Of a stretch of 34,215 nucleotides of DNA, positions 6,412 through 34,202 are shown one piece after another (the stretch's first letter is position 1; the number at the start of each line of letters is the position of its first letter). Under the pieces are notes generated by a model, which worked only from the letters and a program-made list of their open reading frames with translations, did not search any database and was not told the origin of the DNA. The position numbers were made by a program, and so were the translations under genes. This stretch comes from Bacteroidota bacterium (GTDB lineage Bacteria; Bacteroidota; Bacteroidia; Bacteroidales; Prolixibacteraceae), in the NCBI GenBank assembly GCA_023251435.1, contig JAHEYU010000030.1, positions 10,440-44,654 of the forward strand, given 5' to 3'.

Positions 6412-6438
6412 AGTAATATAGTGTTTGATCGCGTACGC

Positions 6439-6520: not shown

Positions 6521-6769
6521 TAATCATCTTAAAGTTTTATAAGTATGTGGTTATGTTTACACATCAAAGCGATTTGTAAATTTTTTATTCGCAGCTTAAG
6601 CTAAATTCCACGCTAGTTGAATTGCCAACAAGTTACAACAATTTGTTAAGCAAACGGCGGTTGGGGGCATCGCCTGTTCCGGTTTTCTTTTGAACTGTGC
6701 GTTTTATTACACGAACGTGCAGTTTGGGCCGTCGAATGGAATAAAAAAGAATGTTTTGATTGTGTTTTG

Positions 6770-6857
6770 GACTCACCCCACCCCGATAAATCGGGGTTAC
6801 CCCTCTCTTTTATGAAGAGAGAGGGGGGAAGGCCGCCCGCGGAATTCGGGGTGAGTC
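6770..6857. repeat. Nested hairpin cluster
   Basis: Outer arms GACTCACCCC (6770-6779) and GGGGTGAGTC (6848-6857) are perfectly complementary. Inside them lie two further perfect hairpins: CCCCGATAAATCGGGG (6781-6796) and CCCCTCTCTT with AAGAGAGAGGGG (6800-6826). The whole could fold as a three-way junction. No coding or RNA gene is recognised. Confidence 0.75.
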
Positions 6858-6920
6858 GGCTATTTAAAATACACCAGCAAATTTCAACCATTGTTCTATA
6901 AATACCCGCCTGCGGCTTCT

Positions 6921-7231
6921 ACCGTGTACCCACAAATAATTTGGAAATAATAATACAAAACAAAAAACAATGGAACGCGGATTTAACCTGATCGAGCGCC
7001 CGCCTGCCTAGGGAAGGGATTAAAACTGATTAAAATCCCGACAAGCCGGGATGATTTTCTAAAGAAACACTCATGAAATTATCAATCATCCATTATCCCA
7101 TTTGTCTTTTTTCGAATCCATTCCAATTTATTGGAATATAAATCCGTTTTCCATCCGCTAAACCCGTGTAAATCCGCGTTCCATTTTTTTCCGGTATATG
7201 ATACAATTGATAATACATGTGGGTACACGGT
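6921..7231. mobile_element. MITE-like element with 14-bp TIRs, repeat copy 2
   Basis: Terminal inverted repeats ACCGTGTACCCACA (6921-6934) and TGTGGGTACACGGT (7218-7231) match perfectly. Within them a second perfect pair, AATGGAACGCGGATT (6969-6983) and AATCCGCGTTCCATT (7171-7185), reproduces the repeat at 435-607, including the inner CCCGACAAGCCGGG hairpin. It encodes no transposase. Confidence 0.7.
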
Positions 7232-7378
7232 AAGTGCGTCGAGCAGGTTTGATGCCGCTGGGATCAAAACGTCATTGGACAATGGCAACCGATTAATTTT
7301 GTTTCGGAATTATCTGTATTATTTGGTGGTCTTTGATTAGCAACGGCATTTATGCCATTTGATAAATTGATGTTTGCT

Positions 7379-7421
7379 GTTGGCTTTAGCCATAAATGAT
7401 TCTCAATTAGGGCTAAAGCCC
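7379..7421. repeat. GGCTTTAGCC/GGGCTAAAGCCC hairpin
   Basis: TTGGCTTTAGCC near 7380-7391 pairs with GGGCTAAAGCCC at 7410-7421. A partial further unit (AGGCTAAGAC, GAGGCTAAACC) follows at 7450-7478. It lies downstream of the SRPBCC gene and may serve as its terminator, although no T run follows on the minus strand. Confidence 0.5.
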
Positions 7422-7512
7422 TTGATTATAAACATTTCTACCGCAGCCTGAAGGCTAAGACTATTGAGGCTAAACCAATAACCAGATAAATTAGTTAATA
7501 TTTGACCGGATT

Positions 7513-8052
7513 CTATTGTTCAAGAATCGCTTTCAGATTATCCAGTCCGTTTTGTAAATCGGGAGCCAGCATGGCTTCCATATCCATAAACAACAACATC
7601 AGCTTCATCGGGAATTTCATTTCTCCGTTAAAACTCCATTTAACCGATGTCACCGAATCATTAATGGCTTCGGTGGCAAGATGGGCGTAGTCGGTCGATT
7701 CGAATGGTTCGATAAAATGCAGTTCATAGTCAATACGACTGCCTTCCTCAATTTTGGTAATCTTCTGCTCACCTTTGCCTGCATCAGGATTTTCGCTGTC
7801 CCATGCCGAAACAAATCCAACGGTGGCATCTTCGCCAACAAATTCCTTTTTCATTGCGGGGTCAATTTTTGCCCAGACACTAAAATTGTCCTGATTCTTC
7901 AGGTACTTCACGTAATCGAAAACTTCCTGTTTCGGTTTATTGATCGTCACTTCGCGCACAACAGCATATTTACCGTCGATAAAAAGCGCTACTACTAAAA
8001 CAAGCACTACTATTCCAAGAATAGATAATCCAATAATTTTCAGAGCTTTCAT
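7513..8052 (-). CDS. SRPBCC family (polyketide cyclase-like) membrane-anchored protein
   Basis: A 179-residue protein with one N-terminal membrane segment (IIGLSILGIVVLVLVVALFI, about residues 5-24) followed by a START/SRPBCC-like fold: VVREVTINKPKQEVFDYV, FSVWAKIDP and a C-terminal amphipathic helix after VKWSFNGEMKFP. Such proteins bind small hydrophobic ligands; the ligand is unknown. The ATG at 8052 was chosen over 8175 because the upstream extension overlaps the preceding gene and the signal-anchor begins at MKALKIIG. It lies 19 bases after the DUF4287 gene, probably in the same transcript. Confidence 0.8.
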   Translation of the reverse strand: MKALKIIGLSILGIVVLVLVVALFIDGKYAVVREVTINKPKQEVFDYVKYLKNQDNFSVWAKIDPAMKKEFVGEDATVGFVSAWDSENPDAGKGEQKITKIEEGSRIDYELHFIEPFESTDYAHLATEAINDSVTSVKWSFNGEMKFPMKLMLLFMDMEAMLAPDLQNGLDNLKAILEQ

Positions 8053-8071
8053 AAGTATTGATTTGGGATAG

Positions 8072-8626
8072 TTAATTGGCTTTTTCGTATGATTTCCGGA
8101 TCCACCCGAAAACATCGGGCGTAATTTCATCCACCGATTCGATTTTAATTTTGTGCGAGCACATTGCGTTTGCACCGGTTATAAGCTCCAGAATTCCATC
8201 AGGCTCCTCCCCTTTCAGGTTCAGGCCAATCTCGAAACGGGTTTTGGTGGCTGGCTGAAGAATGGCAAATTGCCGTTTCCGCCTCAAACTTACGTAAGCA
8301 TTTTTAGGTGCAATTTCCACATCAGGGCCAAAGCGGAGAATTTCGTCCATCAATTTGTCGTAAATCGGGCGAAAATGTTCTTTGCCTTTGTACTGATTTT
8401 CAATCAACGATTCCGGATTTTCAGCCGAACCCGCATCGGTACCCAGCGATTTATGGGCTACTAGATTGGCGTAACCATAGGTAAAACCATGTTCTTCTTT
8501 CAAAAAACGCTGTATCTCGCTGTGTTTGGTAAACTGTTTTTGTTTTACAATTTCTACCCACTCTTCGAGCGACTTACCTGAATTCTTATGCAGGTTGTCC
8601 ATCATTGTTTTCTCTGCCTGATCCAT
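8072..8626 (-). CDS. DUF4287/DUF5655 domain protein
   Basis: A 184-residue protein. Residues 1-70 (GKSLEEWVEIVKQK, HGFTYGYANLVAHK) fit DUF4287, and residues 80-184 (YDKLMDEILRFGPDVEIAPK, YVSLRRKRQFA, CSHKIKIES) fit DUF5655, a common pairing in soil and marine bacteria. No activity is established. It sits 16 bases after the DUF1801 gene and 19 bases before the SRPBCC gene; these three families often occur together, which supports one transcript. Confidence 0.85.
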   Translation of the reverse strand: MDQAEKTMMDNLHKNSGKSLEEWVEIVKQKQFTKHSEIQRFLKEEHGFTYGYANLVAHKSLGTDAGSAENPESLIENQYKGKEHFRPIYDKLMDEILRFGPDVEIAPKNAYVSLRRKRQFAILQPATKTRFEIGLNLKGEEPDGILELITGANAMCSHKIKIESVDEITPDVFGWIRKSYEKAN

Positions 8627-8642
8627 CGTTTAATTGATTTTA

Positions 8643-9101
8643 TTAGTTTTTGAGAAAGTTCAGTTCGTATAAACCAATCCAATCGGCAACTTCCACTTTT
8701 CTAATCAGTTCGCCAATTAACTTATATGGAATCTGGTTCACATTTTTAAAACGGATACAGCTTTTGCCCATATCAAGCTTTAGTTTGCTGTGTTTGGGGT
8801 ACTCTTCGGTAAACCATTTCAGCAAATCAGGATCGGAATAGATGCCCATGTGGTAAAAGGCGATGAAGTTTTTTTGCGCGGCAGCAGCCAGAAAAGGCAA
8901 AGGTAATTTAGGGTCGCAATGATAGCCTTTTGGATAAATGCTGTGCGGAACAACATAGCCAATCATACCATAACTTATTTCTTCGGCGAACCCTTTGGGC
9001 AGGTTTTCAAGAATCGTTTTCCGGAGTAAAATAATGGCTTCGCGTTGGTGGTCGGAAACCTGACTGATATATTCATCGACAGTATTAACGTTTGATTGCA
9101 T
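8643..9101 (-). CDS. DUF1801 domain protein
   Basis: A 152-residue protein with the DUF1801 (YdhG-like) fold: TVDEYISQVSDHQREAI at the start, EEISYGMIGYVVP, then FIAFYHMGIYSDPDLLKWF and GKSCIRFKNVNQIP. The family is small and soluble with no known enzyme activity; some members are annotated as iron-chaperone-like. The start MQSNVNTVDEY at 9101 is the family start. Its neighbours are the sigma-factor membrane partner upstream (60 bases) and DUF4287 downstream. Confidence 0.85.
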   Translation of the reverse strand: MQSNVNTVDEYISQVSDHQREAIILLRKTILENLPKGFAEEISYGMIGYVVPHSIYPKGYHCDPKLPLPFLAAAAQKNFIAFYHMGIYSDPDLLKWFTEEYPKHSKLKLDMGKSCIRFKNVNQIPYKLIGELIRKVEVADWIGLYELNFLKN

Positions 9102-9161
9102 AACTTACAATTTTGGTTGCAGTTGATTAACAATCAGTCGATTTGAAAGGTTCAAAAAAAA

Positions 9162-9839
9162 CTATTCCACCTCTGCCGTTTCCTTAAGTTCATTCATCAT
9201 TTCATTCAGGCTAACCAGGTAACGACCATAAAGTTTGTTGAATCCCCAGCGAAGAACCAGGAAAGTAACTGCAATTAGCGGGACCAGCACTGCCAGTCCA
9301 ACACCAATAACCAGAAGTATTTTCGAAGTTGCTAGATTTTCAATCCCTCCGGTACTGTATTTAACGCCTTCGTAGAGCCCTGCAGCAAAACTTACGATCA
9401 TATTTATCAGCAAAATTATCACTGCCAGATAAAACAGCCTCCGGTAGGTTTTCAGGGTATCCAGAATTCCGGTCAGAAAATCTTTCAACTGAAGGTCAAC
9501 CGAGAAATTTCTTTTTATTTTCAGGTATCTGATTACAAAAAACAGGTAAGTGGCAATGATCAGTGTATTCGAAAAAATATCCATCGGAATCATCCACGAG
9601 GGATATTGCACCGGTTCTTTGATTAAAATTTTTGAGAGATATAAATCATCAAGAATAATATAGGCAATATATGCCAGCAAAATACCAATTCCAATTCTGA
9701 TATTCCGGTCGATCCGTTCTATCATTGTTTTCGTACGGTTACGCAGCAACCCGGTGATCGATTCCCTGCCAAGATGATGTTTATCAACCTCCTGTGAAGA
9801 GTATGTATTCCACGCCGATTTCAAGTCATTTATATCCAT
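9162..9839 (-). CDS. Four-helix membrane protein coupled to ECF sigma factor
   Basis: A 225-residue protein with four predicted membrane segments near residues 48-68, 86-107, 138-158 and 172-198, and a cytoplasmic N-terminus of about 45 residues (MDINDLKSAWNTYSSQEVD). Its ATG lies two bases after the sigma-factor stop codon, so the two are translationally coupled. That placement and the short N-terminal cytosolic part suggest an anti-sigma or sigma-controlling role, but no zinc-finger anti-sigma motif (HxxxCxxC) is present, so this is inference. No closer family is recognised. Confidence 0.75.
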   Translation of the reverse strand: MDINDLKSAWNTYSSQEVDKHHLGRESITGLLRNRTKTMIERIDRNIRIGIGILLAYIAYIILDDLYLSKILIKEPVQYPSWMIPMDIFSNTLIIATYLFFVIRYLKIKRNFSVDLQLKDFLTGILDTLKTYRRLFYLAVIILLINMIVSFAAGLYEGVKYSTGGIENLATSKILLVIGVGLAVLVPLIAVTFLVLRWGFNKLYGRYLVSLNEMMNELKETAEVE

Positions 9840-9841
9840 CT

Positions 9842-10330
9842 CTATCCTTCCGTATTCATTAACAACTTCAGCTTTTTCTTGATGCGATTCATTTTCACCC
9901 TCACATAATTTTGGGTAATCCCGGTTATTTCGGCAATTTCTTCGTATTTTTTGTCTTCAAGGAACAGCAGAATAATCGATTTTTCGATGCCCGTCAATTG
10001 TGCAACCGCCTTGTTTAGCATCTTTATCTGGTCTTCTGTGCCTGTATCATAAATTTCAACCGCCAACTGCAAATTCTCATACGGAATCCCCGATTTATCA
10101 GGTTGTCTTTTTTCTTTCTTGAAACTGGTAATTGCAGTGTTCAAAGCAACACGGTACATCCAGGTAGAGAATTTCGATTCGTTTCTGAATGAAGGGAACG
10201 ATTTCCACAGCTGTACCAGAATCTCCTGAAACAAGTCACGCCGGTCCTCTTCCGAATCGCAATAAATGGAACATACCTTGTGAATGATCCCCTGGTTCTC
10301 TGTGATTATTTGTAAAAATTCCTTCTCCAA
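9842..10330 (-). CDS. ECF-type RNA polymerase sigma factor
   Basis: A 162-residue sigma-70 family protein. Region 2 is DLFQEILVQLWKSFPSFRNES followed by FSTWMYRVALNTAI (residues about 32-70). Region 4 is LFLEDKKYEEIAEITGITQNYVRVKMNRIKKKL (about 120-155), a helix-turn-helix for the -35 element. The reading frame opens with TTG at 10330 (MEKEFLQIITENQG); no in-frame ATG or GTG is found nearby upstream, so a rare TTG start is proposed. It is coupled to the downstream membrane protein and lies 40 bases after the RluB-like gene. Confidence 0.88.
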   Translation of the reverse strand: MEKEFLQIITENQGIIHKVCSIYCDSEEDRRDLFQEILVQLWKSFPSFRNESKFSTWMYRVALNTAITSFKKEKRQPDKSGIPYENLQLAVEIYDTGTEDQIKMLNKAVAQLTGIEKSIILLFLEDKKYEEIAEITGITQNYVRVKMNRIKKKLKLLMNTEG

Positions 10331-10370
10331 AATCGTAGTTGATTAGTCTGCAAAAACTGATTTCATTACA

Positions 10371-11159
10371 TTAACTCATTTTCAGATAACTAATTTCGTG
10401 AGGAGTCAAAAAACGGTAACGTCCGCGGGGCAGATCTTTTTTGGTAAGTCCGGCAAAAAGTACACGGTCGAGTTTTTCAACATGATAGCCAAAATGCTCG
10501 AAAATACGGCGTACAATGCGGTTTCTGCCTGAATGTATTTCAATGCCCACCTGACGTGCATCGCTCTGATCGATGCGGTGAATATCGTCGGCAGCAATTA
10601 ATCCATCTTCCAGTTCAATTCCTGAAGCTATTTTTTCTATGTCGTCCTGAAGGAGGTCGCGGTCGAGCTGAACATGGTAAACTTTTTTCTTCTCGTAGCT
10701 CGGATGTGTCAATTTTTTGGCCAAATCGCCGTCGTTGGTAAATAGCAACAGTCCGGTTGTCTGAATATCGAGTCTTCCCACCGGATAAATCCTTTCGGGA
10801 CAAGCGCCCTGAACCAGTTCCATCACAGTACGACCTGCAAACGGATCGTCGCTGGTAGTCACAAAACCTTTGGGCTTGTTGAGCAACAGATATACTTTTT
10901 TCTCCGGATTCAGGCGTTTGCCTTCAAATACTACCTCGTCGTCGAGTGTCACTTTCCGCCCCAGTTCGGTAACTACCTCGCCGTTCACGGTGATAAACCC
11001 TTTGCTGATGAGATCGTCGGCATCGCGGCGCGAGCAAATACCCGCGTTCGAAATGTATCTGTTAAGTCGGATCAGTCCATCGCCAATCGGCACATTTACC
11101 GGCTCACTAACAGGCGGTTTCTTTTTTAAAGTGATTATTTTCTTTGGAAGCTCTTTCAT
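10371..11159 (-). CDS. rluB: Pseudouridine synthase, RsuA/RluB family
   Basis: A 262-residue enzyme that isomerises uridine in 23S rRNA (RluB) or a related site. A basic N-terminal tail of about 28 residues precedes an S4 RNA-binding domain (RLNRYISNAGICSRRDADDL, residues about 32-75). The catalytic domain carries LLNKPKGFVTT and the active-site motif PVGRLDIQTTGLLLFTNDG, in which the aspartate of GRLD is the nucleophile. NRIVRRIFEHFGYHVEKLDR is the usual C-terminal block. RsuA versus RluB cannot be settled by eye; the long N-terminal extension is more RluB-like. Confidence 0.85.
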   Translation of the reverse strand: MKELPKKIITLKKKPPVSEPVNVPIGDGLIRLNRYISNAGICSRRDADDLISKGFITVNGEVVTELGRKVTLDDEVVFEGKRLNPEKKVYLLLNKPKGFVTTSDDPFAGRTVMELVQGACPERIYPVGRLDIQTTGLLLFTNDGDLAKKLTHPSYEKKKVYHVQLDRDLLQDDIEKIASGIELEDGLIAADDIHRIDQSDARQVGIEIHSGRNRIVRRIFEHFGYHVEKLDRVLFAGLTKKDLPRGRYRFLTPHEISYLKMS

Positions 11160-11208
11160 TCGAAATTATGGCATTGAATTAAAAATAAATAATCCGGTTA
11201 CAAGCTAA

Positions 11209-11348
11209 TTCTACTTTAACACATTTGAAAAATCAACCTTTTTACCCTTAATCCCTAAAGGGAAAGGTCGATTTTTCAGCTTTCTCCCTTCAGGGTCGGG
11301 GTGAAAAGCTGAAAAATTGTTTCCTGAATTGAATCTGTTAAAGTAGAA
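11209..11348. mobile_element. 140-bp palindromic element with 13-bp TIRs
   Basis: TTCTACTTTAACA (11209-11221) and TGTTAAAGTAGAA (11336-11348) are exact reverse complements. Inside, ATTTTTCAGCTTT near 11271 and AAAGCTGAAAAAT near 11305-11317 form another perfect stem, with CCCTAAAGGG beside it. No open frame is present. It separates the rluB-like gene from the carboxypeptidase-regulatory-like gene upstream of it. Confidence 0.7.
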
Positions 11349-11414
11349 CTAATAATCAGCTGTATTTATCCGGAATTAGAAATGCAAAGGTCGTAAAAAT
11401 TAACGAAAATACAT

Positions 11415-12185
11415 TCAACGGCGCTCCTGCCGATAGATTTTATATTGTTCTTTTATAGCATTGCGAACTTCATATTCGGTCGAAATCTGACTTAGCAAAC
11501 CTTTGCTGTTAAAATATATCATAAACGAATCCGCCTGATAATCATTCATTCCGGTTAATTCCATCACCAATTCCTTGTTGTAAAATTGCGATAAAAACTC
11601 CCACTTCTTTTCGGTGACGATGGCTTGCCGGGTTTCACGTTTTTCGCGCTCCCGCTTGCTGGTGTAGTATTGCAAAAAACTTACCGGACTAAAAATGGCT
11701 GCCAGTACAGGTGGTTTTTTGTTGTAGGCATCGCCCCGAAGTTGCGGGTCGATATCTACTTTTTTCGCGACCGGAACCCCATCCATATTTACTTTGGTTT
11801 GCTCGCCCTGCACTTTCACTTCAGGAATTGCAAACCTGATGGGTTTTGCATAAAGAATCAATACATTCATTTCGTTGTAATTGGCGGGTATGCGAACCGT
11901 TGTTTTCGAAAACCCAAGCGAAGAAATGGACAGACTGTCGATGTTGAGCATATCCATCGTAAAGCGGCCCTGCTCATCGGTAGTTACACCGCTGTGCGTC
12001 CTGAAATTTAGCACGTAAGCAAATGGTACCGGCAATTCATCGTCGAGGTTCAGCACTTGTCCCTTCAGTTTTATGGGCATCGGGTCAATTTCTTCAGCCT
12101 CCTGAGCCTTTATCTGAAAAGCACACAAGACAACAAGCAGGAACAATATGGTTACAGAAAAAATATTTCGGGAATAAACTAACAT
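11415..12185 (-). CDS. Carboxypeptidase-regulatory-like exported protein
   Basis: A 256-residue exported protein. Residues 1-27 form a signal peptide ending in AFQIKAQ. Residues 38-110 (LKGQVLNLDDELPVPFAYV, GVTTDEQGRFTMDML, SISSLGFSKTTVRI) are a CarboxypepD_reg-like beta-sandwich typical of Bacteroidota envelope proteins. The C-terminal half, with PVSFLQYYTSKREREKRE and ELTGMNDYQADSFMIYF, is helical and highly charged. Proteins of this shape sit in the periplasm or outer membrane; the function is unknown. It is transcribed away from the serine hydrolase across a repeat-bearing divergent spacer. Confidence 0.8.
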   Translation of the reverse strand: MLVYSRNIFSVTILFLLVVLCAFQIKAQEAEEIDPMPIKLKGQVLNLDDELPVPFAYVLNFRTHSGVTTDEQGRFTMDMLNIDSLSISSLGFSKTTVRIPANYNEMNVLILYAKPIRFAIPEVKVQGEQTKVNMDGVPVAKKVDIDPQLRGDAYNKKPPVLAAIFSPVSFLQYYTSKREREKRETRQAIVTEKKWEFLSQFYNKELVMELTGMNDYQADSFMIYFNSKGLLSQISTEYEVRNAIKEQYKIYRQERR

Positions 12186-12556
12186 ATCAAGCTTATATTC
12201 AGTGCTTTCAAATCTTCAGACTTTTAGCTGTTTTGCAACTTATACCGATTGCACATTCATAATAGTCCAATTGCGACTTCGTCTTATTGTACTATATTCA
12301 TGTAGCATCGGCATTAATCCCGATTAATCGGGATAATTAATATTTTGTCTTTGGACTAAAATATAAATACAATTGGTATTAAAAGCCTTTCAGGCAAAAG
12401 TAAAAAAATACAAACAATTACACGCCCGCAGTAACATTCGTTAACTGGATTTAACAGAGTTTACAAGATTATAACCGAATCGCTGTATTTTCGATTCAGA
12501 TTAGCTAACTTTAATCACCCAATCTCTGAATAACAACCAATAAAAACTAAATCACC
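12186..12556. other. Divergent spacer with MITE-like copy 2
   Basis: No gene is seen. Positions 12239-12382 hold the second copy of the TAATACCAA element. The remaining part (12420-12556) should contain the promoter of the serine hydrolase; TAACTTTA at 12506-12513 is one mismatch from the TAnnTTTG box. Confidence 0.5.
12239..12382. mobile_element. MITE-like element, copy 2
   Basis: Ends TTATACCGATTG and CAATTGGTATTAA are imperfect inverted repeats. A CCCGATTAATCGGG hairpin lies at about 12318-12331 and TTTGGACTA near 12350. Read in reverse complement, the blocks appear in the same order as in 3615-3750. It is non-coding. Confidence 0.6.
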
Positions 12557-21453: not shown

Positions 21454-21525
21454 GCGGGAGTAGCTCAGTGGTAGAGCATCAGCTTCCCAAGCTGAGGGTC
21501 GCGAGTTCGAGCCTCGTTTCCCGCT
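21454..21525 (+). tRNA. tRNA-Gly, anticodon CCC
   Basis: The 72-base cloverleaf is complete: acceptor GCGGGAG pairing TTCCCGC, D arm with TAGCTCAGTGGTAGAGCA, anticodon stem TCAGC/GCTGA with loop TTCCCAA (anticodon CCC, glycine), variable GGGTC, T arm GCGAG-TTCGAGC-CTCGT, discriminator T. CCA is not encoded. It is followed closely by a terminator and then by a gene-poor region and the defence-like island. Confidence 0.95.
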
Positions 21526-21534
21526 CACTGATAG

Positions 21535-22694: not shown

Positions 22695-23588
22695 TTAATA
22701 TTGTTTGTATGCCTTCTTATGTGCTTTTGTAATTTTATCTACCAATAGCTGCGGTTGTATTACTTTCATTTCAGCACCAAACGAAAGCAGCTCCATTACC
22801 AAATCGTGTGTAATACACAACTTAAGGCTGATTTGTAACTCTTCCTTGTTGTCAATCAATACTTTTTGGGTAGAATGAATTGGTAGAGTCTTGATGTATT
22901 TTCCCTGAAACGGAGTAAATGATAAGATGATTTCCTGCGGTTCTTCTCCATTGGGGCTGATGATCCCAAAACAATAGCGATAGCTCTCTTCAGCATTGTA
23001 ATCTTTTGGAAATTCAAAAGTCTTTTTTGTGATTTCAAGACTGGTCAGGCGATCCAATCCAAAGCTTTTAACGATCTCTTCATTTTCTTTGGCTAAAATA
23101 TACCAACGGTTATTGAATTCTTTTAAAGCGTATGGTTTGACAATCCGTTGGCTGGGTGCTTCTTCCCAAAACTTGTGGTAAGTGAATTTGATCTGGAGTC
23201 GATTCCTGATGGCATGAAGTAAACCGTATAAGTTCTCAGTTCCTGCTGGCCTTCGTTTCTCAAAATGAATATGATTCGAAAGCCGATCGGTTATATTCAG
23301 AGCATTAAAGGTGTCAAATGCCTCTAAAATCCGATCATTCACTTCCGGTTGATCGTCGATGTTTATAAAATAAACTTTTCGCGAAAAATCATACTGAATA
23401 TCCACATTGTAAAGCGAACGAATATCATCAAGGTCTCGCTGAAACGTTCGCTTTGAAATTGTGAAATTGTATTCCTGAATTTCAGATTCGAGTGCCAGAT
23501 AATCTGTTATTTCAATGAATGTTGATGGATTCTTCCGGAGCTTCCTAATGATCAGGGCATACCGTGTAATCGATTCGCGTTTTGACAT
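22695..23588 (-). CDS. WYL-domain transcriptional regulator
   Basis: A 297-residue regulator. Residues 1-60 form a winged helix (YALIIRKLRKNPSTFIEITDYL, ISKRTFQRDLDDIRSLY). The WYL domain spans about residues 125-220 with IKFTYHKFWEEAP, VKPYALKEFNNRWYILAKE and SFGLDRLTSLEI. A C-terminal WCX-like extension contains PFQGKYIKTLPIHSTQKV. WYL regulators bind a ligand, often nucleic acid, and commonly control defence genes. It lies 47 bases downstream of the UVR-motif gene on the same strand, suggesting it regulates the AAA/UVR pair. Confidence 0.88.
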   Translation of the reverse strand: MSKRESITRYALIIRKLRKNPSTFIEITDYLALESEIQEYNFTISKRTFQRDLDDIRSLYNVDIQYDFSRKVYFINIDDQPEVNDRILEAFDTFNALNITDRLSNHIHFEKRRPAGTENLYGLLHAIRNRLQIKFTYHKFWEEAPSQRIVKPYALKEFNNRWYILAKENEEIVKSFGLDRLTSLEITKKTFEFPKDYNAEESYRYCFGIISPNGEEPQEIILSFTPFQGKYIKTLPIHSTQKVLIDNKEELQISLKLCITHDLVMELLSFGAEMKVIQPQLLVDKITKAHKKAYKQY

Positions 23589-25309: not shown

Positions 25310-26899
25310 CTACTTCTTCTTTTTTGATTTTTCGAGTTTCTTTTTTAACGCGATACCACTTGCAGTTAAACGGTAACGTTGGTTTGGATGATTCGGATTT
25401 TCAGGAAAAGTCATTTCAATAAATCCTGATTCAAGTGCTGGCAATATATAATTTACCCTAAAAAAGTCATCACTTCTCAAATCCAAATTCTTTTGGATCT
25501 CCGACCTTTTCATTTCACTACTAATAACCAATATAACTCTTTTAACTTCCCCAGTAACTTCCCCAGTAACTTCCCCAGTTTCCTCATAAGCTTGGTGGTT
25601 AGTATTTTCACCAACTTCCTCAATATCTGCACTTTCAATTTGTATGATTACTTGTCCAGTAGGTTCCCCACTAACTTCCTCAGTAGTTTTTAAAGTCCGC
25701 CAGATAATTGTTTTAAAATCCTCTTCCTGAATAAACTCCGGTTCTTTCAATCCTGCATCATTACACAAACGAATAATGTCACCGGTACCAGTTCCCATAC
25801 GCTCAATATATCCGGCCAGATACATCGGTTCGGCCAATAATGGATTTGCAGGAATGGATCGGTGTGGTTTGCGAAGCTTGGCGGGACTTAAACCAAAAGG
25901 CAGAGTTCCCGGGTTCCAAATTTCCAGCCGGTCTTTAAACAGCATCACCTGTACACTTCCATTGTTGGTATAATCGCGGTGGGCGATGGCGTTTACAATG
26001 GCTTCCGAAACTGCAGCGCGTGGAAGTTCATATTGTATAGGTACCTGGTTACTTTCTTCCCGGGTTCCGACCGACACATCAACTTTCGACAATACAAAAT
26101 CGACAGCCTGATTCACCAGTTGAAACACATCGCCTTTATAAACCTGGTAGGCCGGAATGGGCTTTACCACATCGAAGCCGTGGAAATGAGCACATTTTAC
26201 TTCTGAAGTAATGAAAAAACGTTGCGGCAGTTTGCCGAATAACAAGATGGCTGCATTACTTACGCGCTGGTTGTCCAATAAATTCAGATGGGTTAAAATG
26301 GTTTCCGGGGTAGATTCAACCGGCAAAGGAAAACCTCTTTTGGCTCTGGCAACGTGCACAAACTCTTTGATTTTATTCTGATCCAAATCCTCCAAAGTGG
26401 CAGTTTCGTTTAAACTGGCATCAAACGGACCGGTTCGAATAATTTCCTTTTCCTTGAGGTAATTAACCAGCGAGGCATAGACCCCTGAATTGAGGTCATC
26501 GCCCGAATTAAACCGTTTCCGCACCAGATCGATACCTACCTTTTGGATGAGTTGGTTCATTTTGGTATGGCGTTGCAAGCCCGAATCACCTAACACATAA
26601 ATAAGCCGGGTTTTGTGTTGCCGGGTTGCTTCATCGAACTCACGCTCGGTGGGCGAAATGCCTTCGGCATCTTCAAAACCATATTTGGCGCCAAACAGAC
26701 CAAGGTAAATACCGCACCGGGCAACTTCGCTGATGTAAACAGAATCGGCTCGTTGGTCCGATGCCGGCAGATTCTCGAATAAAAATGGTTCGAAAAAAAG
26801 CCCCAGCAACGGGTCACTATGCAAATAAACGAAGAGGTTTTGCCGCTCACTGGCAAACTCTGTTTGTACACTGCTAATAAAGATTTTTAGTTTCTTCAT
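25310..26899 (-). CDS. DUF4062 plus RecG-C-like ATP-binding fusion protein
   Basis: A 529-residue fusion. Residues 1-100 match DUF4062 (KIFISSVQTEFASERQNL, LGLFGAKYGFE), a TIR-like fold domain found at the N-terminus of conflict and STAND-type proteins. From about residue 170 it follows the AlbA_2/RecG-C class: RVSNAAILLFGK, then EAIVNAIAHRDYTNNGSVQV and LEIWNPGTLPFG near 300-340 (GHKL-type ATP site). The end is a winged helix (YRLTASGIALKKKLEKS). Before it, TGEVTGEVTGEV is encoded by a 12-bp tandem repeat. DUF4062 replaces the usual AlbA_2 domain. Likely a regulator or defence sensor; inference. Confidence 0.82.
   Translation of the reverse strand: MKKLKIFISSVQTEFASERQNLFVYLHSDPLLGLFFEPFLFENLPASDQRADSVYISEVARCGIYLGLFGAKYGFEDAEGISPTEREFDEATRQHKTRLIYVLGDSGLQRHTKMNQLIQKVGIDLVRKRFNSGDDLNSGVYASLVNYLKEKEIIRTGPFDASLNETATLEDLDQNKIKEFVHVARAKRGFPLPVESTPETILTHLNLLDNQRVSNAAILLFGKLPQRFFITSEVKCAHFHGFDVVKPIPAYQVYKGDVFQLVNQAVDFVLSKVDVSVGTREESNQVPIQYELPRAAVSEAIVNAIAHRDYTNNGSVQVMLFKDRLEIWNPGTLPFGLSPAKLRKPHRSIPANPLLAEPMYLAGYIERMGTGTGDIIRLCNDAGLKEPEFIQEEDFKTIIWRTLKTTEEVSGEPTGQVIIQIESADIEEVGENTNHQAYEETGEVTGEVTGEVKRVILVISSEMKRSEIQKNLDLRSDDFFRVNYILPALESGFIEMTFPENPNHPNQRYRLTASGIALKKKLEKSKKKK
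25547..25582 (-). repeat. 12-bp tandem repeat inside the DUF4062 gene
   Basis: Three units of TTCCCCAGTAAC (plus strand; the third degenerate) encode repeating TGEV in the linker before the C-terminal winged helix. Diverged units flank it (near 25650-25685), showing repeat expansion within the coding frame. Confidence 0.85.
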
Positions 26900-27017: not shown

Positions 27018-27635
27018 TTACTTCCAATCCATATCAATTTCAAACAAATCTTCAGTTGGATAATCATATTTCTTAATCAATTCATCTTCAGTGAAAATTC
27101 GATTAAATGGATCGATGTACGAAGCAATAATTGCTTTAATCTTTTTTGCTTCTGAATCTATTGATTGTGAGATTTCTTTGGTAACGATATATGGGAAAAA
27201 GTATGGGTAACTAATCTCCATCATCCCTTTGTTGTGATTCACGAGTTTATTTAATTTCAGATAGTAATTCAAGAGATTACGGTAATTATCCTGCAGATCG
27301 TAAACACTTATTTTTCCTTGCTTGGCACCTTTAAACTCACTTTTTGCGATAGTTCTGTTTATTTCATCAAGCAGATTCGAATACTCTTTAATGGATTTAT
27401 TGGCAATAAACTCACCGGAATAAAAATTTTCAATACTCTCCTGCATTCCTTTAAAAGAGTACAATTCCGGAACAAATGCCAACGTCAATGAAAGAATTTG
27501 TTGCAGCCGAATAAATCTGGGGTCATTTTTCATTTGCACTTCAAATGACCAATCCTTTGGATCCGGAGTCATATTGGTGAATTCGATGATTTTTTCGAGC
27601 AAATCGATAGCGGTGTATTGAGATGAGTTATTCAT
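27018..27635 (-). CDS. Unknown helical protein, end of McrBC operon
   Basis: A 205-residue protein without a family I recognise. It has no signal peptide or membrane segment. It is mostly helical, with charged helices (SNLLDEINRTIAKSEFKGAK, DLQDNYRNLLNYYLKLNKLV) and an acidic tail. It is the last gene of the same-strand run from McrB, starting 42 bases after the 161-residue gene. Position suggests an accessory subunit of the system; function open. Confidence 0.65.
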   Translation of the reverse strand: MNNSSQYTAIDLLEKIIEFTNMTPDPKDWSFEVQMKNDPRFIRLQQILSLTLAFVPELYSFKGMQESIENFYSGEFIANKSIKEYSNLLDEINRTIAKSEFKGAKQGKISVYDLQDNYRNLLNYYLKLNKLVNHNKGMMEISYPYFFPYIVTKEISQSIDSEAKKIKAIIASYIDPFNRIFTEDELIKKYDYPTEDLFEIDMDWK

Positions 27636-27677
27636 AGTAAAAGTTGCTGTTTAGAATTTTATTTTCTGTACGATTAA

Positions 27678-28163
27678 TTACAAATCATCGAACCCATTAA
27701 ACGGAATATCATCATCCGGATCTTTATCAAACGGACCAACTCCCGGAGGATTGAACAGCCCCCAGCGGTCGGTGATGTAATCCCACTTGTCAAATCCGGC
27801 TACCCACTCAATGAACAACAACCGGTATTCCTCAATCAAATCCCTGACTATCTCAAAATATTCCACATGCTCAAAGCCAAACATTTCGAGGGAGTGGTTT
27901 TGAATCATCAGTTCACGGGCAGCTTTTCGGATAATGGCTGCGCACTCCATTTTGATATCGTACAACTGACCACCAGTCGCTCCGGCCACTTTAACAGTCA
28001 ATAGCATGGCATCTTCCAACATGATACCTTTCACATGTGCCAACATTTCGTCATCATCCGGAATGAGTTCACAAATGTGATGAACTACATCAAAAATTTC
28101 CATTCCCTTTTTGTAAATGGGTAGTTCTTTGGGATCTATTCTATCGTTTTTGTCGTCAAACAT
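27678..28163 (-). CDS. Unknown four-helix-type protein
   Basis: A 161-residue acidic protein. Residues 15-125 look like a helical bundle: FDVVHHICELIPDDDEMLAH, then MLEDAMLLTVKVAGATGG, ECAAIIRKAARELMIQNHSL and EYFEIVRDLIEEYRLLFIEW. The pattern recalls the four-helix-bundle proteins of Bacteroidota (some are relatives of the 23S-IVP/Avd fold). The tail RWGLFNPPGVGPFDKD is proline-rich and acidic. It starts 66 bases after the ADP-ribosylglycohydrolase gene. Function unknown. Confidence 0.65.
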   Translation of the reverse strand: MFDDKNDRIDPKELPIYKKGMEIFDVVHHICELIPDDDEMLAHVKGIMLEDAMLLTVKVAGATGGQLYDIKMECAAIIRKAARELMIQNHSLEMFGFEHVEYFEIVRDLIEEYRLLFIEWVAGFDKWDYITDRWGLFNPPGVGPFDKDPDDDIPFNGFDDL

Positions 28164-28229: not shown

Positions 28230-29696
28230 TTAATTCTGATTAATCAATTTTTCACCTAGTCGTTCTGCTAAGTCAAGAATATTTTTTTTCTTGACAAGTT
28301 TATTAACCCATTTCTTCGGGATATTATCAAATCCATAAAGTAAACCAGCAAGTCCTCCTGTAATTGCTGCTGTTGTATCTGTATCCTCACCTAAATTTAC
28401 CGCTTTTAATATGGCTTCCTTGTAAGTTTCAGTTGTCAGTAAACACCAGATACTTGCTTCAAGTGAATGTACTACATATCCACTACTAAATATTTGTTCT
28501 TCGGGAAGTTCCTGAATATTAGATTTTAGCAAACGGTTGAAGTGATCAATTTCAGAAGCTGAAATACCAAGTTGTTTCAATATCTCCGGAATTTCTCTCT
28601 TTAAGTCGAAATAAATTTCAAACTTGTCTTTTTCATCCACCAGTTGCCTGGCAAATTCAAGATAATAATAACAGGCTATAACAGAACGAATGTGCCTGTG
28701 TGTGATTGATGAAACCATTTTAGTTATCTCAAATCTCTCCATGCTGTTTTTGTCAAGCATATAAAAGACCAATGGCAAAATCCTCATAAGCGATCCATTT
28801 CCATTCGAATTGGCCTCTGTACCACCAGCTAATTCCGGAGCGGTGCCATTAACGATGCGATCTATTGCAGAATGAGTTGCATTTCCAACATCAAAAACTT
28901 TTCCTCTGGCGGTCCAGTAGTTTTGATACCTCCATTTAATGAAATTTAAGCCGATATTATTTACATCAAAACCTTCTGTTATTGCTTCGGCCAGACAGAA
29001 GGTCAAAGAACTATCATCTGAAAATGTACCGGGAGGTAAATTATACGTTCCATAACCGATCATATCAATTACAGGATTTGCTTTGAGCGTTGACCTTGAT
29101 TTAAATTCAAATGGAACACCAACTGCATCACCTATAGCCACTCCAAAAAGTACAGATTTAATCTTTTCTTTAAGTAGTTGACAATAAATACTGTGGTCAA
29201 CTTTTTTGGGTTCTGTTAAAAGTGAACCTAAATTACTCCATCTCTTAATAAAATCGGCTTCGGATTTTATGTTATTCTCAAAATAAATGTCTTGTACCCC
29301 AATTCTTAAAAGTCCTTCTGCAATAAGGAAGCAAAAAGTTTTTCTATCCGAATCATCATCTGTGTTCGCATATATCAATGGATTTCTTTCAACCCAAAAC
29401 TCCCGAATTTCATATCGGTTTTCAATAGCAATAACATTAGCTTTATAAATCCCGATTCCAGTCCATGAACGGTGAAAATAAAGCCAATCATTTTCAAAAT
29501 AAATAAACCACTTTTCGCCCATATCATGAGGAATTAAACCTCTTCGAATTATTGAAAACTGGCTCTTAGTAAATTGCAGTGATATTGATATTCTTTTTGG
29601 ATCAGTAATTGGTTCAATTTTCCATGATTCCCGGGTTGCAATCTCATCCATTGTGATAGATTCAGATGATATATTAATATTTTCAACACACATCAT
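28230..29696 (-). CDS. ADP-ribosylglycohydrolase with unknown N-terminal domain
   Basis: A 488-residue fusion. Residues 170-488 are an ADP-ribosyl-glycohydrolase (DraG/ARH) domain: FGVAIGDAVGVPFEF near 185-197, the metal motif GTFSDDSSLTFCLAEAI near 222-238, NGNGSLMRILPL, and GEDTDTTAAITGGLAGLLYG near 435-454. All the metal-binding aspartates are present, so hydrolysis of ADP-ribose adducts is likely. Residues 1-160 (FTKSQFSIIRRGLIPHD, WFIYFENDWLYFHRSWTG) form a separate beta-rich domain I cannot name. The first ATG of an ATG-ATG pair directly abuts the McrC TAA with no gap, so expression is coupled to McrC. Confidence 0.88.
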   Translation of the reverse strand: MMCVENINISSESITMDEIATRESWKIEPITDPKRISISLQFTKSQFSIIRRGLIPHDMGEKWFIYFENDWLYFHRSWTGIGIYKANVIAIENRYEIREFWVERNPLIYANTDDDSDRKTFCFLIAEGLLRIGVQDIYFENNIKSEADFIKRWSNLGSLLTEPKKVDHSIYCQLLKEKIKSVLFGVAIGDAVGVPFEFKSRSTLKANPVIDMIGYGTYNLPPGTFSDDSSLTFCLAEAITEGFDVNNIGLNFIKWRYQNYWTARGKVFDVGNATHSAIDRIVNGTAPELAGGTEANSNGNGSLMRILPLVFYMLDKNSMERFEITKMVSSITHRHIRSVIACYYYLEFARQLVDEKDKFEIYFDLKREIPEILKQLGISASEIDHFNRLLKSNIQELPEEQIFSSGYVVHSLEASIWCLLTTETYKEAILKAVNLGEDTDTTAAITGGLAGLLYGFDNIPKKWVNKLVKKKNILDLAERLGEKLINQN

Positions 29697-31001
29697 TTAT
29701 GTTAGACAAGCGATCTCTTTTAATACCAGATTCTCTTTTTTAAAACTCCATGGAACACACCGAAGTGTGATTTGATCGTCATACTGAAAGAGCAATTCTT
29801 TGGTAAAAGTGTCGCATTCAGGATAAATAAGTATCAAATGATCTGATTGGTATTTCTTTCCGTAGGCATACAACTGATACATGTCGGCCTGAGTAATCAG
29901 GTAGTTTTTGCCTGATAGATTATGGTCGATTATTTTCCATTTTGTATCAGCGACTATCAAAACTTCACTTGTCCTAACCACAAGATCCGGTCTGATTCTG
30001 AATTTGTTTTGTTTCAGCAAGAGGTCGGTTAACAGGAAGTGCTGACGATCTTGGGTGGTTATTTTTAATTCAGGATATTGCTTTTTGAGTTTGTGGGCAA
30101 CATACGATTCAAAAAGTACTTCCATCGGAAATAGGATGGCTGTGTTCAGGTTCTTCCCTTTGTAGCTTGTGAATGATTTCCCCTCCAGAAAAAGTCTTGC
30201 CCAGATTAAGGCCGTGTCGTAATAATTGAACAACCGGCTGTGTCCATTCAATTTTGACAAGTCTGAAGCAATATTTTTCGAATGATCAACCTCTTCAAAA
30301 AGAGATAATAAGGAAATAATCTGGCTTTTGTTTTTTGTTGACTTACTTTTCTTGCTAACATAGGTTAGCGCTGCTTTTAGTATTCTATTTTGCGGAATAT
30401 CTGCTCTAAATTCATCATACCGTACAAAAAAACGATCCGCCCGGGTGACGTTCTGTTTAATTTGCTCGCTAAAAAGTAAGCGACCTTTTAAGAACTTCTG
30501 ATTCTCTTCCGAGTTGGCATAAAAATGTTTGATTCCTCTTGTTACAATACTTTCCACCTCTTTTAAAAACATCGAGATGAAAATTTCCAGAATAGGCATT
30601 CGGTTTGCATTGATATGAGCCTTATCAATGGTTTTAAAAGGCGAATTGTGCAGCGTCCGAAGCATGGAAAGCAGAATAGAACGGCTTTCATTAATCGCTT
30701 CGGGAGTATCATCTTTTTGTGTTGTATATATTTTTGGCAAAATCTCAATGGTTGTTCCATTTCGTGTTTCAATTACGCCAACATAATTTTTAACCCGTAT
30801 AAAATCTTTCCCTTTTTGCCGGTGATACGAAAAAGCAGATTCAATTTCGGTGCCCGGATCACTATTTTCAGCAACAAAACACTTCAGGTTCTCAAACGAT
30901 TTTGGTTCAAGGTAAATCGCTTGCACTGAATCTACATGCTCATGAAAATCCATTTCATTCCATATGGTGCCATATTCGCATATTCGTTTTACGTTTTTCA
31001 C
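29697..31001 (-). CDS. mcrC: McrC-family nuclease subunit
   Basis: A 434-residue McrC protein, the endonuclease partner of the McrB NTPase in modification-dependent restriction. The N-terminal half (FIRVKNYVGVIETRNGTTIEILPK, KGRLLFSEQIKQN) is the McrC beta-barrel/helical part. The C-terminal PD-(D/E)xK nuclease shows RIRPDLVVRTSEVLIVADTK near residues 333-352, with the aspartates and lysine of the active site in place. It starts with GTG at 31001, six bases after the McrB stop, and its TAA directly precedes the ADP-ribosylglycohydrolase ATG. Confidence 0.92.
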   Translation of the reverse strand: MKNVKRICEYGTIWNEMDFHEHVDSVQAIYLEPKSFENLKCFVAENSDPGTEIESAFSYHRQKGKDFIRVKNYVGVIETRNGTTIEILPKIYTTQKDDTPEAINESRSILLSMLRTLHNSPFKTIDKAHINANRMPILEIFISMFLKEVESIVTRGIKHFYANSEENQKFLKGRLLFSEQIKQNVTRADRFFVRYDEFRADIPQNRILKAALTYVSKKSKSTKNKSQIISLLSLFEEVDHSKNIASDLSKLNGHSRLFNYYDTALIWARLFLEGKSFTSYKGKNLNTAILFPMEVLFESYVAHKLKKQYPELKITTQDRQHFLLTDLLLKQNKFRIRPDLVVRTSEVLIVADTKWKIIDHNLSGKNYLITQADMYQLYAYGKKYQSDHLILIYPECDTFTKELLFQYDDQITLRCVPWSFKKENLVLKEIACLT

Positions 31002-31007
31002 CCGAGC

Positions 31008-34000
31008 CTATTTAGTTGTCGTTGGTCGTTCATAAATATGAATAAAACTTTCGACCGGAATTAGGTCAAAGTTCCCGGAACCTAGATTCTCATTGATCTC
31101 ATAAATGGTCTCATCTTCAAAATCATCCAGATCCAAGCCGAATAACTTCCTTTCATCTTCTTGTGAATATTTCTTCCTGATCCGTACAAATTTCTGTTCC
31201 TCGGTTTTTCCCCATTGTTTAATATCGCCTAAAACCAACTGCACCTTTTCCCAGTCTTTATAAAAATACTCCTGAAGAAGTGGTACAATTTTATCGCGGA
31301 AAGCAATACAAATATCTGATTTACTATTACATTTTATGAAATATGAATGCCCAATGGTGTGATCCCGATCCAGCAAAAACTCAATTCTTTCATTCATAAT
31401 CGATAGCAGTTTTTGCAAGTTAATTCCTTCTATTTCCTCATTGAGCAACTCAGGATCCGGCATAAGTTCTTTAAATGAGAATCTTCTCCTTAGTGCCGTA
31501 TCCATTAAAGCTATACTTCGGTCCGCTGTATTCATAGTTCCAATTATCCAAAGGTTTCCCGGAACTGAAAAACTTGATTTGGAATATGGAAGTCTTACTT
31601 CTAAACCTCTTTTATCTGGTTCAATTAAGGTGATTAATTCGCCAAATATTTTTGAAATATTCCCCCTATTTATTTCATCAATAAACAATGCATAAGGTTT
31701 ATCCAGATCTTTTGATGCTTTTTCACACATGCGCAAGAAAATACCTTTCTCCAATCTATATTTCAGTTCTTCTTCCTCTTCAAGATTGGGCCTAATCCCT
31801 TCTACAAATTCTTCATAACTGTATGATTGGTGAAATGTAACCAATTCATAACGCTTTGTAGCTTGTTTTTCGGGTATATAATTCTTCCACTCCTTTAATT
31901 TATCAACAAGGTCAGGTAGAATTTCTTCTGTCCTTGGCTTATCCAACGACCAGGTTGAGTTGTTATCCTTCCAAAAAACCTGAATTTCACTTTTTTTTGC
32001 AACATTAACATTAGGGCAATCATTCTTTGTATGATACTGCAGCCAATACCAAATTGTATTCCGTGGTTTTGTGTTTTTTGATTGGCTTATTTTCTCAACC
32101 ATTAATGGATGTGATGCAAGCTGATTCACTTTTACTGCATCCAGATCATACATGCACATTACAATTACTTCCCACCATGATAGTTCGTTAACCAACTCAT
32201 ACACGAAAATATCTTTTGATTTACCTGCGTAGAGATCAGTGAATTTGCCAAAATAATCATTAATCAATCGGTATGTTTTACCTGTTCCTGGTGGCCCATA
32301 TAATATAAGATTAAGTGGAATGTTGATAATCTTTTTTGGCAACTTTTCTCCGAGCTTATTGATCCCAATAATATTCAAAATTTTTTCGCAGTATTCCGGA
32401 TATGGACTTATATCGGTTAACGTTTTCAAAACCAGACTACCATCCATTGTCCATAAACCTTGTTCAATCCATCTTACTTTTCTCTTAAAGGGATATAAAT
32501 GGTCAGTTTCATAGTAATAACCTGACTCAACTATACCATATCCAATTAACTCAGATCGACCCTTTTTTACGACTACTAAATCACCAATATTAATTGAATG
32601 CAGAAAGTCCCAACTCATAGTTGCATCATTTTTTTTGCTGCTATCAGTTTTCTCTATCTCTTGCAATTTTTTTACAATATCTTCTTTAGAAGAATATAAT
32701 TTAAGATCACCAAGCTCTTCACCACCAACTGCCATAATTCCCTTTTGATAAAATTCATCCCAATAAACAGCTTGTCTTCCAGGTGCATAAATCCAAATTT
32801 TATTCATGGTTATTGGTGTTTTAATAATTTCAATAATCTTATTGTATTGTGCTTTTGTCGCAGTATAATTCGTTCCTTGCTTACCACCGAAAAAAACTTT
32901 GAATTCGGGAAGTTTGAGTAAGGCTTGCTTAAGTACCGGATTGTCTTTCAAGTTGTAATCTACAGTCATTTGAACAATATCCCGATTTTCTTCTTTGTCG
33001 AATTCAACTTCAGAACAAATTTCACATAAGGCATAACATCCACTTTCATCCCCTGTCATCCATAAAATAACTTTATCCCCTGTCTTGATTTTGTCTTTGT
33101 GAGCGGTCACTCTCCACCATTCATTTTTTGTATCTATGTTCCATTCTTTTCTAATATCCCATTGCTTTGGATTGAATTGAAATATCCAATAATTGGGCGC
33201 TTCATCTTGAAATTGAAAATAAAAAAGAATATCCTGTGCAAGAATATTTCCTCCTTCATCTTTCCATGCAGATTCTGGAAGAGTTGCATTCGTTAAATCC
33301 CACAATTCTTTGTCTTCAAGAATATACTTCTGTTTAAATTCTTCAATCAATTCTAGATAATGCAGATATTTGCTTCCCTTATCTGATTTTTTTTCATTGA
33401 TTAAATCGCAATATTTCGAATAGTATGAATCTTTATAGTATGTGTATTTATTTGGATACATGAATGTTAAATATACACTCATCGCACGTTCATCCTGATT
33501 TCCATTTAGTGTAGGATCAATTTGCTTGATTAACTTATCAACTTCTTTCGGGAAAATTTTAAGGCGTTCACCAAGGTCAATAGTTTCATCAAATAGCCTG
33601 ATTAAAATCTTTTTTGTTTCTTCTGCCTTGTCTGAAGCAATGCGATTAAGTGCTGAAATAGAAAGATTATAGATTAAATTAATTTGCTTTTTAATTGATT
33701 CTTTAACCATTGAACCAAAGTCTGGTGCATCCCATTTCCAATTATCTTTAAAATGCTGAATAGCTTCGTATTTATAAAATTCATCGGAATGACCCTTTTC
33801 TCTTTTTATGGCTTTATATCGCACAATTAAATCGTTGACTGGATCAGGAATAAATTTTTTTCCTTCATCAGTTCCGATTAAAAAATGTGTCAAAGCATCG
33901 GCTCTATAAAAATTGAATAATTCCGGATACTTCTTAAGCAAATCCCCTTGCGCAGATTCTATTGAATGATAACCTCCAATAAAGTCACTCTTAATTTCAT

Positions 34001-34202
34001 AGCCGAGCAAACTTAAAGCATTACGACTTTTCTGATTGACTATAACAAACCGTTTTTTATTTATTCGATTAAGATATATAGTAGATCCTCCTTGCCCGAA
34101 TGAGTTATATTCGGAAACACCTTCTAACCATTGATCAACGTCAAAATTTTCCTTGTATGGTGCTAATGCAAATTCCCTGAATTGTTCGAAATTGCTTTCC
34201 AT
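31008..34202 (-). CDS. mcrB: McrB-family AAA GTPase with EVE-type domains
   Basis: A 1064-residue McrB homologue, much longer than E. coli McrB (about 460). Residues 1-320 are an unassigned helical domain. An EVE/PUA-like domain ([35 protein letters not shown]) lies near 335-460, and a second PUA-like domain ([38 protein letters not shown]) near 466-620. The AAA core has Walker [16 protein letters not shown] near 632-645, Walker [11 protein letters not shown] near 838 and the McrB signature [14 protein letters not shown] near 888. EVE domains read modified bases, so it likely recognises modified DNA or RNA. The ATG at 34202 is near the window edge and no upstream stop is visible, so a longer start is possible. 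Confidence 0.9.

Follow-up and report, generated by a model that had tools for sequence, protein, structure and literature searches.

Introduction

McrBC cuts phage DNA bearing modified bases, and bacteriophage T4 has modified cytosines. Some DNA-modifying phages inject ADP-ribosyltransferases acting on host proteins, with Alt, ModA and ModB of T4 as the classical case. The subject here is an ADP-ribosylhydrolase gene of the ARH/DraG family found behind mcrB and mcrC in a 34,215-nt stretch of DNA (hereafter the window) from a bacterium of the Prolixibacteraceae (contig JAHEYU010000030.1), whose genome assembly comprises 5.7 Mb in 148 contigs. This third gene is read, with a probability of about 0.5, as a swappable ADP-ribose-processing cargo on a restriction operon, akin to the ARG-centric systems and countering phage ADP-ribosylation.

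Iyer, Burroughs, Anantharaman and Aravind (2022, PMC9503650) predicted ARG-centric systems as a counter to viral ADP-ribosylation. According to section 3.8 of that paper, their components include a WYL regulator, vWA, HD, HAD 5'-nucleotidase, calcineurin-like phosphatase, Macro and REases, and a coupled phosphatase is present in slightly more than 55% of the systems and is not universal. Further marks of such a system are an ARG with no transferase coupled to it, WYL or Nudix as the regulator, and a chaperone of the vWA/SseB/TY type. Host systems undoing phage ADP-ribosylation are thus a prediction, for which a restriction operon with such an enzyme is a direct test case. The words 'McrB' and 'bacteroidetes' occur 0 times in the main text of PMC9503650; 'ADP-ribos-', 'DraG' and 'glycohydrolase' occur 0 times in the main texts of the EVE survey (PMC7641849) and the McrBC census (PMC11090510), as do 'macro' in that of the census and 'macro domain' in that of the survey. 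No report of a link between McrBC and an ADP-ribosylglycohydrolase was found in the main texts of the open-licence literature.

Genes of the operon

Domain scans with Pfam were performed on the nine genes of the window. The McrB homologue (31008..34202, minus strand; 1064 aa) comprises an N-terminal region, an EVE domain at residues 337-406 (Pfam EVE, E 1.9e-7), a second recognition-like region at residues 466-593 (matched by PADLOC PDC-S02 models) and an AAA+ motor at about residues 630-1064 (AAA_5, E 5.7e-15), with GPPGTGKT at 636 and MNTADRS at 890. The full-length McrC homologue (29697..31001, minus strand; 434 aa, GTG start; PF10117, E 1e-94) carries a PD-(D/E)xK-type nuclease motif, with RPD at 337-339 and DTK at 352-354. 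The features of type IV McrBC, i.e. an AAA+ McrB with a P-loop and MNTADRS and an adjoining McrC with PD-(D/E)xK, were all found, and the system is expected to be a cutter of modified phage DNA. The third gene (28230..29696, minus strand; PF03747, E 1.8e-72) encodes an ARH/DraG-family ADP-ribosylhydrolase that carries an additional domain at its N-terminus; the protein has 488 aa as called and 473 aa from Met16.

An earlier, sequence-only reading of the window had placed three co-directional open reading frames (ORFs) for EVE-McrB, McrC and the hydrolase here, with 6 bases between the McrB stop and the McrC GTG; the former was confirmed by ORF calls and Pfam and the latter by the gap of 6 nt. 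Judged from strand and spacing, mcrB, mcrC and the hydrolase gene likely form one operon. Promoter-like sites (24 versus 29.8 in shuffles) and terminator-like sites (9 versus 4.2) were scanned and not used as evidence, and no sharp boundary was seen at the operon in the GC profile. Two small genes directly downstream of the hydrolase gene (27018-28163, minus strand; orf161 and orf205, 161 and 205 aa) could belong to the operon; they gave no Pfam, NCBIfam or PADLOC family, with a single weak PHROG match to orf161 (E 0.0028).

A sister operon with a different ADP-ribose-related gene

A second McrBC was found in the same genome (G000:C83, locus L130), and its McrC is 93% identical to that of the window. 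Past this mcrC, a 369-aa macro-like protein, a vWA protein and a calcineurin-type phosphatase are encoded in this order. Comparison of the window with L130 by blastn gave one 2.6-kb block with 83% DNA identity (29722..32312, minus strand), which comprises the McrB motor and McrC; the block starts shortly ahead of the McrB P-loop (at about residue 631) and stops 22 nt short of the McrC stop codon, the homology ending at both flanks. Since the homology is confined to this motor-nuclease block, both the McrB recognition half and the third gene have been exchanged around a constant block. The different ADP-ribose-related gene at the same spot hints at swappable modules in defence operons, and two sister operons of one genome with different ADP-ribose modules provide a built-in comparison.

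The same layout could be taken further, with the McrBC operons of the family as three-part cassettes in which the recognition half on one side and an ADP-ribose module (ARH, or macro-vWA-phosphatase) on the other can be exchanged around a constant motor-nuclease block. The module would then work in restriction itself, by sensing or erasing ADP-ribosylation, whether it is used by phages against the restriction machine or is a mark on DNA for or against McrBC; this extended form is considered unlikely.

The 369-aa protein of the sister operon is macro-like in one half and weakly DUF4145-like in the other. It matched 13 macro proteins by hhalign at 87.3% (pairwise E 3.8e-6), and its match to Pfam Macro (E 0.079) lies below the cut-off. 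Its family has 6 members, a 44-residue match in G488 having been dropped from 7 rows; weak matches to Pfam Macro were obtained for 4/6 members (best E 0.028), and against PDB profiles most of 25 matches were macro domains (best E 0.0067). The NAAN motif, known for its role in macro domains, is not conserved in the family, and given this the sister protein may bind rather than cut. A plasmid search with the protein gave no match.

In two of the six members (G467 and G499), a 230-aa gene and then a DarT-type gene (DarT1, E 7.2e-6, for the DarT-like domain of G467) come after the macro-like gene, and because of these neighbours the family is tied to ADP-ribosylation. The two three-gene sets (L185:8964-11785 and L186:7106-9902), in which the DarT-type protein has an extra N-terminal half, may be a DarTG-like system extended by a third gene. 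The pair of the 230-aa gene and the DarT-type gene is also seen behind an ordinary macro gene in L074 (7334-12654, Polaribacter marinus), where a fused hydrolase, a 355-aa gene, the macro gene, the 230-aa gene and the DarT-type protein lie on one strand; the last (L074:11548-12654) has a C-terminal DarT domain (PDB 7omv, E 3.8e-19).

These neighbours bear on the view that the third gene is a dedicated McrBC partner on nucleic acid, in which ADP-ribosylated DNA or RNA would be the substrate or signal of McrBC and the mark would be read or removed by the hydrolase or the macro protein. It draws on the two unrelated ADP-ribose folds in one slot of sister operons with differing recognition halves, on the DarT-type genes beside the sister's macro family, and on the fused hydrolase lying upstream of macro and DarT-type genes in L074; DarT modifies DNA (PMC12255303), and ARH-like and macro enzymes remove phosphate-end ADP-ribose from RNA by hydrolysis (PMC11833690). 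Against it, PMC11833690 reports ARH enzymes to be inactive on RNA with ADP-ribose linked to the guanosine base or to the 2'-OH, the closest McrBC relatives do without the gene, the fused hydrolase comes after a type I system in L052, and no DarT relative was found in L130, L183 or the window. The DarT neighbours raise its weight, and it is still rated improbable.

Recurrence in McrBC runs of the family

In a survey of 140 genomes of the window's family, 25 McrC loci were obtained and 19 were examined, 6 weak ones being left out; contig ends truncate L165, L168, L171, L173 and L174 at or near mcrC. An ARH or macro gene is present in the same-strand McrBC run in 4/19 (window, L130, G480 and G479), or in 5 if G422 is bridged. 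In G480, mcrC is followed by an ARH gene, then by an endonuclease/phosphatase-family gene and, further on, by AAA_5 and DUF2201 vWA-like genes. In G479 (L183:4898-19998), the order on one strand is McrB-McrC-Fic-AlbA-PglZ-BrxL-macro-vWA, with a WYL gene opposite; BREX-type genes and McrBC thus stand in a single-strand run there. In G422, the order is WYL-vWA-hydrolase-small ORF-NT5C (a HAD 5'-nucleotidase)-start of a McrB-type gene at the contig end, and the sole McrC detected in the genome starts at a different contig's edge, which is consistent with a gap inside one mcrBC, as judged from the contig edges. A pairing unique to the window, as hinted by a single-sequence scan, was disproved by the sister operon and G480.

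Around each of the five closest McrC relatives (58-65% identical), the 19.5 kb examined contain no such ARH or macro gene, and in the nearest (G427, 65%) the next gene encodes a calcineurin-type phosphoesterase. A McrC scan of viral contigs gave 3 pattern matches, none a relative.

Distribution of the fused hydrolase

When 84,980 species genomes were scanned with the hydrolase's N-terminal domain, 205 relatives were found, and the loci of the best 80 of the 205 were surveyed. Both domains are present in 17 non-window ORFs, after L061 (cut by a contig end) and L129 (ARH match of only 3e-4) had been left out of 19, neither of them with McrB or McrC. On the retrieved locus DNA, McrB or McrC was found for 2/17: in L050, which is the G422 contig, the McrB-type start lies on the same strand, and in L059 McrBC lies 5 kb away on the other strand. 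A PF10117 search of 23 genomes with such loci gave McrC in 5 of them, and L059 is the only locus that shares its contig with it. The sequence-only reading had argued from the close spacing to a shared function and had named near-absence of homologues from mcrBC as the finding that would speak against it; with 15/17 fused hydrolases lacking McrB and McrC and with the closest McrBCs lacking the gene, that is largely what was found, and the hydrolase as an obligate McrBC subunit was rejected. The part that stands is the ADP-ribose link, which extends beyond one case to the sister operon, G480 and G479; a dedicated McrBC role is unsupported.

The same counts favour another account, in which the hydrolase gene is a passenger of a defence island, i.e. 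a mobile, self-standing defence gene that landed downstream of mcrC with no functional tie to McrBC. Some defence gene lies within about 3 kb in 7/17 loci, as this account would have it: the McrB-type gene in L050; a type I system in L052, with the hsdR end 24 nt ahead of the hydrolase gene; BrxA and AbiEi in L054 (placement read from a tally without member names); SIR2-STALD and ThsB-type TIR genes following the fused hydrolase in L059 (Gelidibacter japonicus, 1948-12353; McrBC on the opposite strand); DNA methylases in L064 and an N6_Mtase behind an HTH regulator in L066 (the placement of the C-5 methylase in L064 and of the L066 genes being read from the same tally); and the macro and DarT-type genes in L074. 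L051 has a WYL-HD-vWA set, no restriction gene nearby and the same gene content as L033. In the remaining 9/17 loci, no restriction or defence gene was recognised among the best 25 of 80 families, some contigs being short; the neighbour scan covered 71 proteins (90-1300 aa) encoded up to 4 kb from 13/17 loci. An initial statement that most fused hydrolases are without defence neighbours was qualified by the wider Pfam scan (7/17).

Chance and clustering in defence islands

For the chance test, the 25 McrC loci of the 140 genomes (assumed to be 5 Mb each) were compared with 19 genes counted as strong ARH or macro, a strong ARH being one above 220 bits (13, the window having been dropped from 14 rows among the matches listed). 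Within 10 kb of McrC, 3/19 of these ADP-ribose genes were found versus 0.014 expected (P 4e-7). Chance alone is unlikely as an explanation of ADP-ribose genes at McrBC because of the macro slot of the sister operon, the DarT-adjacent macro relatives and the two further McrBC runs of the family (G480 and G479).

Several results weigh against the cargo reading. With 20- or 50-fold island clustering, P for 3/19 changes to 0.003 or 0.03, respectively; strong ARH genes taken alone gave 1/13 near McrC (P 0.009 without clustering, 0.17 at 20-fold); when at least about 155 ARH rows of the family are counted, 1 near McrC versus 0.11 expected is not significant; and the gene classes were chosen after the data had been seen. 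In a phylum survey of 395 genomes, PF10117 gave 62 rows in 53 genomes, of which 2 from G000 were dropped (two of the remaining 60 are pieces of one G232 gene), and the coordinate lists were compared by eye. None of these 60 McrC rows outside the window's family has PF03747 within 10 kb, the nearest lying at about 14 kb (G014), and PF01661 lies within 10 kb of 1/60 (G262, 8.9 kb); Pfam Macro misses the sister type, for which the family's own profile matched only L130 and G479 (L163/L183) among the window and 40 loci. No phosphatase, separate vWA gene or adjacent regulator was found by Pfam among the nine window genes. Finally, these genes may be tied to restriction or to defence islands generally and not to McrBC: in a control with ResIII (30 genomes, 532 matches), at least 3/19 ADP-ribose genes lie within 10 kb versus about 1.4 expected, G486:C59 and G000:C83 being among the matches listed and G499 coming from a separate scan of its locus.

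The island clustering is real, since the window operon ends a dense defence island. Just past the right end of the window (L041:934-16194; G000:C102:44933-60193), genes for HsdM, DUF6088 and AbiEii, HsdS, two GmrSD_N, HsdR, a YgjP-like peptidase and a peptidyl-arginine-deiminase-like protein lie on the same strand upstream of mcrB. The passenger account gains from this island, from the absence of the gene at the five closest McrC relatives and at all 60 rows outside the family, and from the lost significance with the wider ARH count. Against it stand the macro-like gene in the sister slot, the ARH gene past mcrC in G480 and the macro-vWA pair ending the McrBC/BREX run of G479, and the ResIII excess is weaker than the McrC excess (3 versus 0.014). 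It was judged a real but doubtful candidate.

Catalytic domain and relation to immunity proteins

The ARH domain of the hydrolase (PF03747, residues 182-461) is complete, with SDD at 226-228 and DTDT at 438-441. SDD, D438, D440 and T441 are invariant in 15/15 aligned sequences and T439 varies, which bears out the earlier statement that the metal-site residues (SDD and DxDT) are intact. These are presumably the residues of the binuclear metal site, as in DraG and ARH structures. In the AlphaFold model, the ARH domain is confident and all-helical. The best PDB match of the model was 8za7 (Lmo0067; E 8.5e-26, TM by target 0.93, 44% identity in the structural alignment), followed by 6drh/6dre (30% identity) and then by other ARHs and DraG. 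In a Foldseek search of the whole model against viral structures, 13 of the 15 matches at E <=0.001 are named ADP-ribosylglycohydrolase, and the N-terminal domain had no match.

8za7 is titled as an ART-ARH toxin effector-immunity pair and 6drh/6dre as an ADP-ribosyltransferase toxin/immunity pair. Since these closest solved structures are the immunity halves of such pairs, the hydrolase might be an antidote to an ADP-ribosyltransferase toxin, either from competitors or encoded nearby; the DarT-type gene 2.9 kb downstream of the fused hydrolase in L074, which stands behind a macro gene of its own, would fit. At the profile level, no ADP-ribosyltransferase family was matched in the nine window genes, nor was a DarT relative found in the window; a cryptic toxin could still be encoded by orf161 or orf205. 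An immunity protein was considered very unlikely.

The N-terminal domain

The N-terminal domain (29202..29651, minus strand; about residues 16-165) has the conserved motif [ED]KW....HRSW[TS]G and no Pfam family. It was modelled, within the whole-protein AlphaFold prediction, as strand-helix-four strands-helix; a model of the domain alone from the single sequence (mean pLDDT 47.8) was not used. Pfam searches with 7 members gave no convincing family (the lowest E, 0.053, came from a single member), the best solved structure had E 0.52, and identity with a macro domain of the sister type was rejected by profile comparison (0.2%). Elsewhere the domain occurs solo, beside NUDIX genes or in fusion with a preceding NUDIX domain (L031, L049, L080 and L118).

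A solo protein with this domain lies divergently, 88 nt from a large McrB-like AAA_5 protein in L117 (7130-9896; phmmer 1e-40), and another lies two genes from a McrB-like AAA_5 protein in L120 (2-5326, Acidimicrobiia metagenome-assembled genome; phmmer 2e-36); no McrC was found by phmmer in either. In L049 (2760-12291, Aeromonas media plasmid), genes for WYL (opposite strand), ARH, a small protein, a NUDIX-N-terminal-domain fusion, DUF262, SNF2 and DUF4391 stand in a row, so that similar ADP-ribose parts are seen beside restriction-like genes in Gammaproteobacteria.

Start codon of the hydrolase

The TAA of mcrC is directly abutted by ATGATG, and zero spacing had been taken as translational coupling. 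The abutting ATG is literally in the sequence; the coupling is not favoured by the homologues. McrC and the hydrolase share a reading frame, so the first ATG past the McrC stop is what a mechanical ORF reader picks. In an alignment of 14 homologues, 12 ORFs start at window Met16 or within one residue of it, and the longer ORFs of L053 and L071 have Met at this position; residues 1-16 of the AlphaFold model have pLDDT <50. The true start likely lies at 29651, 45 nt past the McrC stop, the 15-codon extension (29652..29696, minus strand) is probably a leader and not protein, and the choice of start codon is probably all that lies behind the zero spacing. Overlap with mcrC is likewise seen for the first-start ORFs of G480 and the sister operon; in the former, a Met ahead of the ARH domain was read from the sequence 58 nt past mcrC, and in the latter the conserved start of the macro family lies 82 nt past it.

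Wider module and neighbouring genes

WYL genes accompany the relatives in L033, L034 and L183, in the same run in the first two, and phosphatase genes are present in L033, L034 and L130. The order in G471 is WYL-HD-small ORF-vWA-hydrolase. In the window, a WYL/WCX regulator gene (22695..23588, minus strand; Pfam WYL, E 2e-13) lies 4.6 kb beyond the hydrolase gene, and its link to the operon is uncertain. The gene at 25310-26899 encodes a DUF4062-HATPase_c_4-Fic-like_C protein; related gene pieces occur at L041:6256-6965 (76-83% DNA identity), and a relative by domain, AlbA-HATPase-Fic-like_C, is present in the McrBC/BREX run of G479. A tRNA-Gly (ccc) gene at 21454-21526, near the left side of the defence genes, is a possible integration site.

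Proposed role

Under the cargo reading, a hydrolase of the ARH/DraG fold would be made from the McrBC operon; phage transferases would tag host or restriction proteins with ADP-ribose, and the hydrolase would strip the tags so that restriction continues. The ADP-ribose modules, either ARH or macro-like together with vWA and phosphatase, would be interchangeable and would attach to restriction and other defence operons. The hydrolase would accordingly have to be active on such a substrate, be induced by infection and benefit restriction, all of which we infer. Three roles had been proposed earlier for the hydrolase, and protection from phage ADP-ribosyltransferases fits best; the DarT neighbours of the macro family lend some weight to a removal of nucleic-acid marks.

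Comparison with known systems

The DarTG systems are approached through the sister operon, whose macro family stands beside DarT-type genes in two members; the differences are that no DarT relative is present in the window or L130 and that the ARH fold is unlike the macro antitoxin. With the ART-ARH immunity proteins, the hydrolase shares the same fold at 44% (8za7) and 30% (6drh/6dre) identity; the known ones are paired with an ADP-ribosyltransferase toxin, of which none was found here, and the N-terminal domain is extra here. As in the EVE-McrBC type IV systems (PMC7641849, PMC11090510), an AAA+ McrB with an EVE domain is followed by the McrC nuclease, to which the window operon adds a third gene for ADP-ribose processing. 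The likeness to the ARG-centric systems, as described in PMC9503650, consists of an ARH without a coupled transferase, the WYL, vWA, HD and phosphatase genes of the relatives, the Macro alternative and the restriction-type effectors, whereas the window holds the hydrolase only, on an EVE-McrBC operon.

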